Of a stretch of DNA of 64,000 nt, positions 8,555 to 60,692 are shown in pieces; position 1 is the first letter of the stretch; every line of letters begins with the position of its first letter. The position numbers were made by a program, and so were the translations under genes. This DNA comes from a virus, in the IMG/VR virus record IMGVR_UViG_3300027852_000809, positions 1-64,000 of that record. One strand, written 5' to 3'. Under the pieces are notes generated by a model. It was not told the origin of the DNA. It did not search any database and worked only from the letters and a program-made list of their open reading frames with translations.

Positions 8555-8571
8555 ATTTTATTTCAATAAAA

Positions 8572-8589
8572 GGGGGATGTCGCTCCCCC
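8572..8589 (-). terminator. Rho-independent terminator of the tmRNA
   Basis: Minus-strand stem GGGGG / CCCCC with an 8-base loop, followed by TTTTATT. It directly ends the coding piece of the permuted tmRNA. Confidence 0.7.
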
Positions 8590-8830
8590 AAGCGTTTCTA
8601 TGCTACTGCTCTAAGCGGTGCAGGGAAAAAGTTTATAACTTTTGAAGTTATAGTTAAACAACTCTCCATAATGCTTCTGTGCGCTGTCAAAACCAAGCGA
8701 CCCCTAAAAAGGTAGAATATAGTGTCTACCACACTAAACTTTAAACGGCGATTCAAAGAATGTGGAGTCGGAGGGAGTCGAACCCTCGTCCAAACGCATT
8801 TATTCAAAATATCTACAAGTCATTTTATTT
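8572..8830 (-). ncRNA. ssrA: circularly permuted tmRNA (acceptor piece first, coding piece second)
   Basis: Read on the minus strand, the tRNA-like 3' half comes first: TTTGGACG, a T-arm GAGGG-TTCGACT-CCCTC (8787-8771), then acceptor strand CGACTCC (8770-8764). After 59 bases comes the 5' half: GGGGTCG (8704-8698), which pairs with CGACTCC in all seven positions (one G-U), then the tmRNA D-loop signature GGTTTTGACAGC (8694-8683). GCATT (8676-8672) can pair with AATGC in the acceptor piece as helix 2. A perfect 8-bp hairpin and an open frame ending ...APLRAVA-stop (8600-8598) follow; AVA resembles proteolysis tags, but the resume codon is not certain. Permuted two-piece tmRNAs are known in alphaproteobacteria, cyanobacteria and some beta/gammaproteobacteria; in a flavobacterial phage it is unexpected. 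Confidence 0.8.
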
Positions 8831-29233: not shown

Positions 29234-29251
29234 AATCTTGTTGATTTGTTG

Positions 29252-29314
29252 TTAACCTCCCGCCCAATATGAGCGGGAACGCTTGCGACTTAATAACCTT
29301 TTTTAAGAGGTCGC
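29252..29314 (-). promoter_or_regulatory. structured leader RNA motif, copy 1
   Basis: Minus-strand order: stem GCGAC/GTCGC (29314-29310 with 29289-29285) enclosing TTAAAAAAGGTTATTAA, then AAGCGT, then hairpin TCCCGC...GCGGGA (29279-29259), then GGTTAACAACAA and the ATG of the 116-aa gene at 29233. Same layout as copies 2 and 3, but with different stem bases. Confidence 0.55.
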
Positions 29315-29326
29315 AACCTCTTTCAA

Positions 29327-30475: not shown

Positions 30476-30547
30476 TTGTTACAACCTGCGGACTAGGGAG
30501 AAATCGTCCGCAACGCTTCGGGCTTAATGCCTGTTTAATGTCGCCCG
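30476..30547 (-). promoter_or_regulatory. structured leader RNA motif, copy 2
   Basis: Stem CGGGC/GCCCG (30547-30543 with 30523-30519) enclosing TTAAACAGGCATTAA, then AAGCGT, then hairpin TGCGGAC...GTCCGCA (30512-30487), then GGTTGTAACAACAA before the ATG at 30456. The stem differs from copies 1 and 3 while pairing is kept. Confidence 0.6.
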
Positions 30548-30553
30548 ACCGAC

Positions 30554-30850
30554 TTATATATCTAAAACATTAATTTCTTTAGTGTTTTCATTGAAACAAT
30601 TATCGTCATAATCTGTAATAGGTTCGTCAAAATTTACGTTAAAACATTCTGTTAAAATTTCTCTGACTTCTTTACTACACAATAATTCTAATAATTTAAA
30701 ATAGTCTTTGTGTTTTTCAAGTGGGCAAGTTTTAGAAACTTTATCCAATACTTCTAAACCAATAGTATTATGTATTTCTTCTTTTATCTCTTGTAAGGAA
30801 TTATACTCTTTACCTTTAAAGATATATTTTGTTATAGCGTTTACTTTCAT
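30554..30850 (-). CDS. hypothetical protein (98 aa)
   Basis: Basic start (MKVNAITKYIFKGKEYNSLQ), Cys at SKTCPLEKH, acidic tail (EPITDYDDNCFNENTKEI). Sits between two structured leaders. No family recognised. Confidence 0.5.
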   Translation of the reverse strand: MKVNAITKYIFKGKEYNSLQEIKEEIHNTIGLEVLDKVSKTCPLEKHKDYFKLLELLCSKEVREILTECFNVNFDEPITDYDDNCFNENTKEINVLDI

Positions 30851-31060: not shown

Positions 31061-31127
31061 ATTGTTACAACCCCGCACCAAAGTAGTGCGGACGCTCTAA
31101 GCCTAATGCCTGTTTAACCTCGCTTAG
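31061..31127 (-). promoter_or_regulatory. structured leader RNA motif, copy 3
   Basis: Stem CTAAG/CTTAG (31127-31123 with 31101-31097) enclosing TTAAACAGGCATTAG, then AGCGT, then hairpin CCGCAC...GTGCGG (31091-31073), then GGTTGTAACAAT before the microprotein ATG at 31044. The first stem overlaps the stop codon of the secreted-protein gene at 31124. Confidence 0.6.
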
Positions 31128-31405
31128 TCGAGTTTTAAATACTGCTTGTATTCCTTGCCCGTCTTCTTGCTCACGCGCTTAATGAAGTAGCCACCCTTCG
31201 CACCTTTGTACACTGGATAAACTACACCCTTAATCGTATGAGTGTATTCTGTCTTCACTGGCGCAACCTTCACGCGCTCCGTTGAGGTCTTAACTATCTC
31301 ACTGCCTACAATTTTGTACGCAGGTTCTTGCGCCGTTGCTGAATAAGTGAAGCCGAAAAGAATCACTACTAAAAATAATAATCTAAGTTTGTTTGTAAAT
31401 GTCAT
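31124..31405 (-). CDS. secreted small protein (93 aa)
   Basis: Sec signal peptide (LRLLFLVVILFGFTYSATAQ), then a basic beta-rich domain (KGVVYPVYKGAKGGYFIKRV, ending KKTGKEYKQYL). GC content is higher than in the neighbouring genes. First gene of the leftward operon, with a consensus promoter at 31430-31460. Periplasmic or secreted role unknown. Confidence 0.65.
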   Translation of the reverse strand: MTFTNKLRLLFLVVILFGFTYSATAQEPAYKIVGSEIVKTSTERVKVAPVKTEYTHTIKGVVYPVYKGAKGGYFIKRVSKKTGKEYKQYLKLD

Positions 31406-33652: not shown

Positions 33653-33724
33653 GGCGAAATGGTGAAGTGGAAACACGGCGGTCTGCAAAACCGCTATGCA
33701 AGGGTTCGATTCCCTTTCTCGCTT
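33653..33724 (+). tRNA. tRNA-Cys (GCA)
   Basis: Anticodon arm GCGGT-CTGCAAA-ACCGC gives anticodon GCA. T-arm AAGGG-TTCGATT-CCCTT. D-arm GGTG...CAC. The acceptor stem pairs with one mismatch and one G-T. CCA is not encoded. It lies one base behind the Tat-like gene in the same direction. Phage tRNAs often compensate codon use or replace host tRNAs cut in defence. Confidence 0.85.
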
Positions 33725-33746
33725 CTAGTAAGATAGAAATAATGGT

Positions 33747-35771: not shown

Positions 35772-36374
35772 TTATGATACGCTTTCGGCAAAATCTAATG
35801 CCATTTCTTTAGCTTCCTCTAAAGTGGTTGCTGTCCATTCACCCTTACCCCAAGTTTTAGGATATGGTGAAAATGCTGTTCCTATTGTTCCTCGTAATTT
35901 TTCATTAGGATGATCTTTCTTATAAATCCAAGCAACTGAAACCCCTGTTGTACCATCTTGAATTGTTTCGGTAGCTGTAACCTTATCTTTACCTGTTTTT
36001 TCCATATCTAAATCACCATAAAATACTCTACATGATTCAATATAATCTTCCTTATTAGAAGGTCTATAACCACTATTATCTTTTTTACAAGTGCTTCCAA
36101 TTCCGAAACCAAATATAGCCCTATGACTTCTGCCATACCATTTTTGTTCTACTGGATTAAAACCAAGCAAGTTAGTTACCTGTTCAGTAATTCCTTTTCT
36201 TAATAGAAATTTTAAATTTTCTTCTAATCCTACAAATGTTAAATAAGACCCGTCAACTTTTGATACATAAGATTGTAGTGCATCTTCCAAGCCTTCCTTA
36301 TCTGTATCAACAACATTTGCGATTGAATCAATAAACGATTGTAATTTCTTTTTAGATATTCTTGTTTTTTTCAT
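35772..36374 (-). CDS. hypothetical protein (200 aa)
   Basis: Basic N-terminus (MKKTRISKKKLQSFIDSIAN), middle with two cysteines (GSTCKKDNSGYRPSNKEDYI, ESCRVFYGDLDMEK), C-terminal TWGKGEWTATTLEEAKEMAL. Preceded by and nearly touching a 235-aa gene; likely one operon. No family recognised. Confidence 0.55.
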   Translation of the reverse strand: MKKTRISKKKLQSFIDSIANVVDTDKEGLEDALQSYVSKVDGSYLTFVGLEENLKFLLRKGITEQVTNLLGFNPVEQKWYGRSHRAIFGFGIGSTCKKDNSGYRPSNKEDYIESCRVFYGDLDMEKTGKDKVTATETIQDGTTGVSVAWIYKKDHPNEKLRGTIGTAFSPYPKTWGKGEWTATTLEEAKEMALDFAESVS

Positions 36375-58358: not shown

Positions 58359-60692
58359 TTAAGCTGAAAAGTCAGACATTGCTAAACCTCCTTTTTGAGA
58401 TATTTCAACAGACTTTCTTTTTTTTACTTTATATTGAGCGCCCATGATAGCCATACCCGAAGCAACTCCTAAATCAAATAGCTTACGTTTGTTAGGATTA
58501 ATGTCAATCCATTCTTGGATTAAATCAATAAACCAAACTTTACAATCGTCTTCTAAATTAATTCCTACGTTATCAAATATATAATTTTTTAATAGATTCA
58601 TTTGATCTTCTATTACTGGCGTAGAACTTGGGATTCCTCCCCACTTTTGTTCAGCATCAGTTAATTTATTGTAAGGTTTATCTTGACGACGCAGAACATA
58701 TCCTGTAAATCCTTTATCATACATATACTCAAGAAGCCTTGCTTTGTTACTTTCAATTAAAGCATTAAAACCCCAAAACTGACAAGCCATAATTACATCA
58801 TCGTAAAAATCATCCCTTTTATTAGGTCTTTCTTTATATTTTAAAAAGAAAGAATGTGAGGGCGCACCTGCCATATTAAAGTTAGTATATCCTGCAATAG
58901 CTCCATCTGAACCATTACCGTCTCCTGTATTTCCTATAATATCATAACTATCAACTCCAAAGCATCCAATACCTTGATTATCAGGTGTTTGTAGTTTTCT
59001 TCCGTAAAATAATTTTATTGAATGTTTATTTTGTTTGTCAGGGTCAGGAATCCATGTTGTGTGAAATCTACCTTTTGGATTTGGTTTCCAAACTACATTT
59101 GAATTGTAAGGTTCAGCAGACCAAGCTAAGTTTCCTCTATAAATGATTCTTTCATTTAACATATCAGGAGTGTACTTATCTAAATGATCTACATGATTGT
59201 TTAAATTATCAATTTCAAAATCATTATTTACTCCTCCTTCATTTCTAAACATGTGTTCAGGAGTTCTAGGCATATCTCGAAGAAAAGCATTTAAACTTTT
59301 TTTGTCGTCTAATTTTTTATATGTATCAAAAGTAATTTGCCAATCTGTTATAGCCCCATGTTCAACTATTTTACCTATTTCATTTTTAATAGGCTCTTTA
59401 GGGTCATAGACAATAGAATAACCCCATTCATCAAAATAACTTATAGGTTGGGTCATTGTATAGCAAACATCTATAAATAAAGAAGCTAGACCGTTTTGAG
59501 TTCTTCCAAGCTTATTTCTTTGTGTTATATCAGCTTTTTCAAATTCATCTTTAAATTCTTTTCCTCCACCTTTTTTGTATTCTCCTGCCGTACTTCCAAA
59601 TCTTCCAGTAGCACCTCCTTCTGTATGACACCTCATGTGCCTAGTGATGAAATCAGTAAGACTTGCATCTTCCCATTTTCCTATTTCATCATTTATCGAG
59701 AAATATTTTACCTTCAAACTATCGTATGCAGTTGTCTTTGTAGGGTAATAATCGATAGTGGATATTTCCATATCATCTGTCTCAAAAGTAATTTGCAAAC
59801 TACTTTTCACTTCTTCATTCGGAAGATCAATAACAGGTTTAAAATATAAAGGATAGTAATTAAAGGAATTTACTATTTTACCAGTAAATAATTTTTTAGC
59901 AAGGTCTTTTCTTTCAGAAACAATAGGAATCTCTGCATATTTAGTGATTGTAAGTTCGTCAAGTGCTAAACTTGCTGATTCAACAGACCAACTTGTTCTA
60001 CGTGCTTTACCTCTAATTTCACCCCATACACGGGTATCAGCCTTACACGCTTCCCAGTGCCACCATGTTTCCATAGCTGTAACACGAAATAAAGGAAATA
60101 TATTTGATTCTGTTAAGTAATAATGTTGCAGAAACATCCAATTAGCTCCTGTGATATAATGGGTTTCGTTATCGATTTTAATGAACATTCCAAATTTTCG
60201 TTTAAAATATTCATCACGAATAAATTCGTTAAACTCATTATAAAGTTCTTGTCTTTTAGTAAGAAAATCTTTTTTAACTTTAGTTCTACCAACTCCACTT
60301 TTATTACGCTTCATTTCGCGTTTATACCAATTCCAAAGTCTTTTGAATTCTATAGGAGGTGGTTTTCTTACCCATTTTGCTTCATTAGGTTCAACATCTT
60401 TATTTACTATTTTTTTATCAAAATAATTTTTTGTGATTTCAGTTCCACTTTGTTTTATTCGTAAACCTTGTAGTGAGTGATTAGGTAAGCCAATTAAATA
60501 ATCTCCTACTTTCCAAATATCCCCAAGAGTTCCGTCTTGAGATATACAAACGAAATTATCATTGAATTCAGGATATTCTCGATATTCCCAAGAATGTTCT
60601 TTATTCTTTTTATCGTAAGTAGATTTAGGTATAATAGATTCTATTTTTACCTTTTCTCCAATTCTTCCTCTATAGCTAGTGTCTCTTTCCAT
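58359..60692 (-). CDS. terminase large subunit (777 aa)
   Basis: ATPase segment: EIRGKARRTSWS (about 225-236, a divergent P-loop), Walker B-like YFSINDEIGKW (about 330-340). RNase H-type nuclease: GCFGVDSYDI (about 578-587), then FYDDVIMACQFWGFN and RKLFDLGVASGMA-like ending. Resembles the large terminases of crAss-like and Cellulophaga podoviruses in size and in the FYDDV block. It packages phage DNA; the small subunit is not certain (see 60692-61045). Confidence 0.8.
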   Translation of the reverse strand: MERDTSYRGRIGEKVKIESIIPKSTYDKKNKEHSWEYREYPEFNDNFVCISQDGTLGDIWKVGDYLIGLPNHSLQGLRIKQSGTEITKNYFDKKIVNKDVEPNEAKWVRKPPPIEFKRLWNWYKREMKRNKSGVGRTKVKKDFLTKRQELYNEFNEFIRDEYFKRKFGMFIKIDNETHYITGANWMFLQHYYLTESNIFPLFRVTAMETWWHWEACKADTRVWGEIRGKARRTSWSVESASLALDELTITKYAEIPIVSERKDLAKKLFTGKIVNSFNYYPLYFKPVIDLPNEEVKSSLQITFETDDMEISTIDYYPTKTTAYDSLKVKYFSINDEIGKWEDASLTDFITRHMRCHTEGGATGRFGSTAGEYKKGGGKEFKDEFEKADITQRNKLGRTQNGLASLFIDVCYTMTQPISYFDEWGYSIVYDPKEPIKNEIGKIVEHGAITDWQITFDTYKKLDDKKSLNAFLRDMPRTPEHMFRNEGGVNNDFEIDNLNNHVDHLDKYTPDMLNERIIYRGNLAWSAEPYNSNVVWKPNPKGRFHTTWIPDPDKQNKHSIKLFYGRKLQTPDNQGIGCFGVDSYDIIGNTGDGNGSDGAIAGYTNFNMAGAPSHSFFLKYKERPNKRDDFYDDVIMACQFWGFNALIESNKARLLEYMYDKGFTGYVLRRQDKPYNKLTDAEQKWGGIPSSTPVIEDQMNLLKNYIFDNVGINLEDDCKVWFIDLIQEWIDINPNKRKLFDLGVASGMAIMGAQYKVKKRKSVEISQKGGLAMSDFSA

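Follow-up and report, generated by a model that had tools for sequence, protein, structure and literature searches.

A permuted tmRNA gene in a phage of flavobacterial type and its relatives in other Bacteroidota phages

Gene permutation of tmRNA has been described for Alphaproteobacteria, Betaproteobacteria, Cyanobacteria and mitochondria. The resulting two-piece tmRNA is established in three bacterial groups and in mitochondria, its coding pieces typically having pseudoknots 1 and 2 (PMC3985003). Two-piece tmRNA is also known in phages, mostly marine ones, and the case studied most closely is of the alphaproteobacterial type (PMC9004378); the current tmRNA database contains 79 phage sequences (PMC11915505). 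An SsrA gene has been reported in Maribacter phage Panino, its permutation being unremarked (PMC11590407). We found no paper describing the lineage of Bacteroidota-phage genes considered below as permuted, while the tmRNA database may already list some of its members.

The DNA analyzed here (the window) is a stretch of 64,000 nucleotides, positions 1 to 64,000 of the IMG/VR virus record IMGVR_UViG_3300027852_000809. It contains a permuted (two-piece) tmRNA gene at positions 8568-8825 of the minus strand, in which the acceptor piece is followed by a spacer and then by the coding piece, with the acceptor stem closing across the spacer; all features of the gene given below are on this strand. The 3' acceptor piece, transcribed first (8764..8825, assigned from the sequence and the Rfam match, the 5' end being approximate), consists of the 3' strand of P2 (candidates AAATGACT, 8825-8818, and TGCGTT, 8798-8793), the T-arm (8791-8770) and the acceptor 3' strand CGACTCC (8770-8764), a motif present at the locus once more, inside the T-loop. 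It is followed by the discriminator A8763, presumably the 3' end prior to CCA addition; the next bases are CA, and CCA is not encoded in this gene or in its relatives. The 58-nt spacer (8762-8705), which folds as two hairpins, is presumably removed by processing. The coding piece starts with the acceptor strand GGGGTCG (8704-8698) and the D-arm-like CTTGGTTTTGACAG (8697-8684). As claimed in the initial annotation, GGGGTCG pairs with CGACTCC over seven positions; the pairing is exact and includes G3:U.

The 5' strand of P2 (AGCGCA, 8685-8680, and AGTTGTTT, 8663-8656) and the leader, which has no pseudoknot 1, occupy positions 8646..8685, and ATAACT at the end of the leader abuts the resume codon TCA (8645-8643). 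The tag frame from TCA to TAG (8645-8598), with its start set by alignment with the relatives, encodes SKVINFFPAPLRAVA, the tag itself being at 8645-8601 and the TAG stop codon at 8600-8598; the ending RAVA-stop, read earlier from this sequence, is therefore right. The resume codon is in the loop of a hairpin TATAACT...AGTTATA (8634..8652), common to part of the lineage. The tag is followed by an H-type pseudoknot, CGCT/AGCG with GGGGG/CCCCC, and then by TTTT (8568..8594), the alternative fold of this region being a terminator hairpin (8589-8572).

The Rfam model of permuted tmRNA (RF04321, tmRNA_permuted) matches positions 8611-8820 of the minus strand with 52.1 bits (E-value 2.6e-7, cut-off 47). 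This is the two-piece model search that the initial annotation had proposed, and together with the sequence layout it confirms that the acceptor half precedes the 5' half. The linear model RF00023 gives at best 29-43 bits in the whole 83,742-base virus record, below the cut-off and covering the acceptor half and upstream DNA only, and no acceptable linear tmRNA match is present anywhere in this record. A chance assembly, or a decayed remnant of a linear tmRNA, might account for the silence of ARAGORN, which calls nothing at this locus, and for a score just 5 bits over the RF04321 cut-off. However, no stem is damaged, and neither is the tag or the pseudoknot; the design recurs in Panino and in the nearest relative (L100/L133), and the DNA pattern of permuted genes, checked on known loci before use, matches the window once and none of 100 shuffles, while it is expected 0 times by chance. 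The relatives refute this explanation, which we consider extremely improbable.

The anatomy of the lineage was studied on about 40 relatives, with pairing statistics calculated for 36 distinct genes. Cognate strands form a complete acceptor stem in 97% of these genes, compared to 32% after swapping strands between genes, and G3:U is present in all 36. P2 between the two pieces has a mean energy of -14.2 kcal/mol for cognate and -11.0 kcal/mol for swapped strands, none of 20,000 permutations being as good (kinship was ignored). The resume codon is 56-64 nt from G1, compared to 89-101 nt in linear host genes, and at about 60 nt the 5' region is some 25 nt shorter than that of the RF04321 consensus (85 nt to the resume codon). 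Pseudoknot 1, sought between P2 and the tag, exceeds shuffles in none of the 36 phage genes and in 11 of 17 linear host genes. Downstream of the tag, most relatives have an H-type pseudoknot (PK2), which exceeds nearly all shuffles in 19 out of 35 and shows compensatory changes (AGT/ACT in L065, CGAA/TTCG in L063). The resume-codon hairpin of part of the lineage is better in cognate than in swapped combinations (1 of 20,000 permutations as good, kinship ignored), and should be treated as a lead only, since relatedness of the sequences was left uncorrected. The Bacteroidota-type TANNTTTG element occurs upstream of 16 of 49 genes (background 5.7%), mostly at -46 to -58 before the T-loop, while no promoter element was found directly upstream of the window gene. 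Thus, comparison and sequence together show the permuted order, acceptor stem, T-arm, inter-piece P2, conserved tag frame and post-tag pseudoknot.

The tags of the lineage are close to GKVINLFNAPLRAAA, with the consensus G-K-V-I-N-L-F/N-N-A-P-L-R-A-A-A of about 15 residues. Of the 23 distinct tags with 15 residues, 21 have Arg in position 12. The window tag reads S-K-V-I-N-F-F-P-A-P-L-R-A-V-A, its TCA resume codon and serine start being unique among the 36 genes. Substitutions in the tag are most frequent at third codon positions (738, compared to 577 and 498), which fits a translated frame. Instead of AA, roughly half of the phage tags have AVA, ATA, MSA, MAS, MAV or similar residues at their C-terminus; as a speculation, such endings might alter proteolysis. 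Short-tag sub-groups (GEQVELAMAA, GNNYEMRAAA; L070, L092, L101, L085) are also seen within the same CCA-less permuted genes.

The tag bears on the possibility that the RNA is a decoy, that is, a tRNA-like mimic occupying SmpB or stalled ribosomes and inhibiting host trans-translation, with the tag incidental. The missing pseudoknot 1 and the unusual resume codon of the window gene agree with it, as does the tag-less tmRNA of mycobacteriophage DS6A, reported to inhibit endogenous tmRNA (PMC11915505). Still, the tag frame, its stop, the 5' distance and the amino acid sequence are conserved in about 40 genes, being needless for a pure decoy, and we regard this role as improbable. The absence of pseudoknot 1 is not fatal to a tagging function, since tagging in E. 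coli needs pseudoknot 1 and yet a small hairpin can substitute for it (PMC3968760).

The carrier has portal and terminase PHROGs consistent with a tailed phage. Its terminase (58359-60692) shares 59% identity with the one from Tenacibaculum phage Gundel_1 (Pachyviridae), and about 30% with those from Cellulophaga and Flavobacterium phages. The carrier is related to Gundel_1 and may belong with the Gundelvirus relatives in Pachyviridae, as judged from the closest terminase and portal; its host is presumably a flavobacterium, among the marine Bacteroidota. The initial identification as a permuted tmRNA of a flavobacterial-type phage is thus supported by the RF04321 match, the terminase kinship and the alignment with relatives. 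No permuted tmRNA was found in Gundel_1, phi13:2 and elemoA, nor in 21 of 22 IMG/VR terminase relatives, the remaining one having a sub-threshold match only. A virus record of 79,890 bases (G054), with a terminase 64% identical, does carry a permuted tmRNA with the tag VKVINLFTPQLRAVA, but there its neighbours are homologous to genes located around 31 and 34 kb in the window, rather than at 8.7 kb. Synteny was therefore dropped as an explanation, and the different position means that the gene moved between near relatives.

Other features of the window were also observed. A single tRNA-Cys gene is at 33653-33725 (plus strand), near the spot corresponding to the tmRNA of the nearest relative (G054, L133), which is located beside the homologue of the 34-kb gene. 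Three Pistol ribozymes (54-70 bits; 31066-31133, 30480-30554 and 29251-29321, minus strand) are found within 2 kb, located at the termini of small ORFs or close to them. The product of 35772-36374 (minus strand) matches Pfam Tad6, a type I Thoeris inhibitor (E-value 1.6e-33), and is likely encoded by an anti-defence gene, while 145-1986, among the few plus-strand genes, encodes an OLD-like AAA ATPase with a TOPRIM domain, possibly involved in defence or exclusion.

The window gene is neither isolated nor the first permuted tmRNA in Bacteroidota phages. Permuted tmRNAs of crAss-like phages, Chryseobacterium phage MA9V-3 and Panino, available in GenBank, are recognized by both ARAGORN and Rfam, two of the crAss-like ones being just below the RF04321 cut-off, and are annotated merely as "tmRNA" or "SsrA" with the permutation unmentioned. 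The distribution of the lineage was assessed by searching IMG/VR and 84,980 species genomes with a DNA pattern describing permuted genes in which CCA is not encoded. It matched 44 IMG/VR contigs and a single species genome, that of Sunxiuqinia indica (Bacteroidota), where the match lies in a prophage region. Of 35 records containing relatives, 34 score above the RF04321 cut-off. The longest proteins of three out of five carriers resemble those of Bacteroides or Flavobacterium phages (with matches to some phages of other hosts as well), while those of the other two have one partial tail-protein match and no match, respectively. Members of the lineage occur in several Bacteroidota phage groups that are unrelated to one another. 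Two candidate members were rejected, L010, a betaproteobacterial-type gene, and the tmRNA of Cellulophaga Calle_1/phi38:1, which is linear and matched in the T-arm alone; the neighbouring exonuclease, used as a query on viral contigs, yielded no relatives. RAGATH-9, -20 or -22 RNAs were observed within about 1.5 kb of the permuted tmRNA in five crAss-like loci (L002-L004, L007, L009).

In Bacteroidota genomes, RF04321 scores above the cut-off in 2 of 393, and linear tmRNA in 60 of 61 sampled, Sunxiuqinia among the latter. The second genome with a permuted tmRNA (L114, G292:C1:986035-986308, tag GKVIQMNNAPVRLAA) has it adjoining tRNA-Met and tRNA-Ile, and this is probably an integrated element. 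Phages do integrate at tmRNA genes, and the authors of the Panino study suggested that the phage gene is a copy restoring the host tmRNA broken by integration (PMC11590407), to which the location in the Sunxiuqinia prophage would correspond. However, the hosts have linear genes, whereas those of the phages are permuted, carry other tags and lack pseudoknot 1, and hence are not attachment-site copies; moreover, Sunxiuqinia retains a full linear tmRNA of its own. An origin as an integration-site relic is accordingly very unlikely.

We consider it highly probable that the locus is a phage-borne two-piece tmRNA gene acting in trans-translation with host factors. Judging from what is established for tmRNA in general, its function would most likely be phage-borne trans-translation using host SmpB, no SmpB having been found in the 83,742-base virus record. 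A single precursor would be transcribed, probably together with the upstream exonuclease gene, and cleaved by RNase P at 8705/8704, before G8704, and by a tRNase Z-like or other endonuclease after A8763, CCA being added by the host. The two pieces would then pair, be charged with alanine by host AlaRS via the G3:U identity pair, and bind EF-Tu and the SmpB of the host, in place of one of the phage. Ribosomes stalled on broken mRNA could thereby be rescued during infection, with A-SKVINFFPAPLRAVA appended to the stalled protein. The gene would be retained most likely for ribosome cycling during mRNA degradation, possibly with the tag handled unlike that of the host.

A distinct permuted lineage in phages of a phylum with linear tmRNA would make phages a vehicle, or the birthplace, of permuted tmRNA. 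The absence of pseudoknot 1 in natural tag-bearing tmRNAs, if confirmed, would inform on the role of this element, while the phage-specific tag raises the question whether stalled proteins are steered by phages to a different fate. Annotation has hidden this lineage, as GenBank labels go no further than the RNA class and ARAGORN overlooks the window copy.

Compared to the known permuted tmRNAs (RF04321; alpha RF01849, beta RF01850, cyano RF01851), the lineage has the same gene order, tRNA-like domain and tag, with a score over the cut-off, and it shares the post-tag pseudoknot (PK2) of the alpha, beta and cyano two-piece forms. It differs from them in the 5' region (about 60 nt, 85 in the model), absent pseudoknot 1, unencoded CCA and the GKVINLFNAPLRAAA tag type, and these differences make a separate lineage likely. 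Thus the window gene belongs to the permuted tmRNA family, its lineage being distinct by comparison with the published descriptions, while the tmRNA database may already include members. The initial suggestion of a further origin or a transfer holds in part: the gene belongs to an existing, likely separate Bacteroidota-phage lineage, while it is not proved that the permutation arose independently. That this is a fourth bacterial-type permuted lineage, arisen and living in Bacteroidota phages, devoid of pseudoknot 1 (a hairpin perhaps presenting the resume codon) and imposing a phage-specific tag in hosts with linear tmRNA, is a serious possibility, to which we give slightly less than an even chance.

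Among phage genes, that of Panino (PP540027, 27557-27889) resembles the window gene in its permuted order, the 60-nt length of the 5' region, the ATAACT preceding the resume codon, the hairpin at that codon and the end element GGGA-ACGACAT-CCC; its tag is GKVMNVSFAPTVRQFA, and it differs in its location in a tRNA cluster and the resume codon GGT. The crAss-like tmRNAs (cr10_1, cr50_1, cr60_1, cr114_1, cr125_1) are likewise permuted and lack CCA, with the resume codon at 59-61 nt in the two measured, but their spacers are longer (about 100-210 nt in the two measured) and the tag type is GNNFVTDYTQLAVA. The two-piece tmRNA of marine phages (Melnitz, pelagiphages; PMC9004378) is also phage-borne and permuted, but of the alphaproteobacterial type, akin to SAR11 genes and not from Bacteroidota phages. 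Finally, the chromosomal tmRNA of Bacteroidota (RF00023) comes from the phylum of the presumed hosts, and its tag often starts with G as well; unlike the phage lineage, it is one-piece, has pseudoknot 1 and a resume codon at 89-101 nt, and the host tags, of about 10 residues (e.g. GEYNYALAA, ANDYSYAMAA), are unlike those of the phages.
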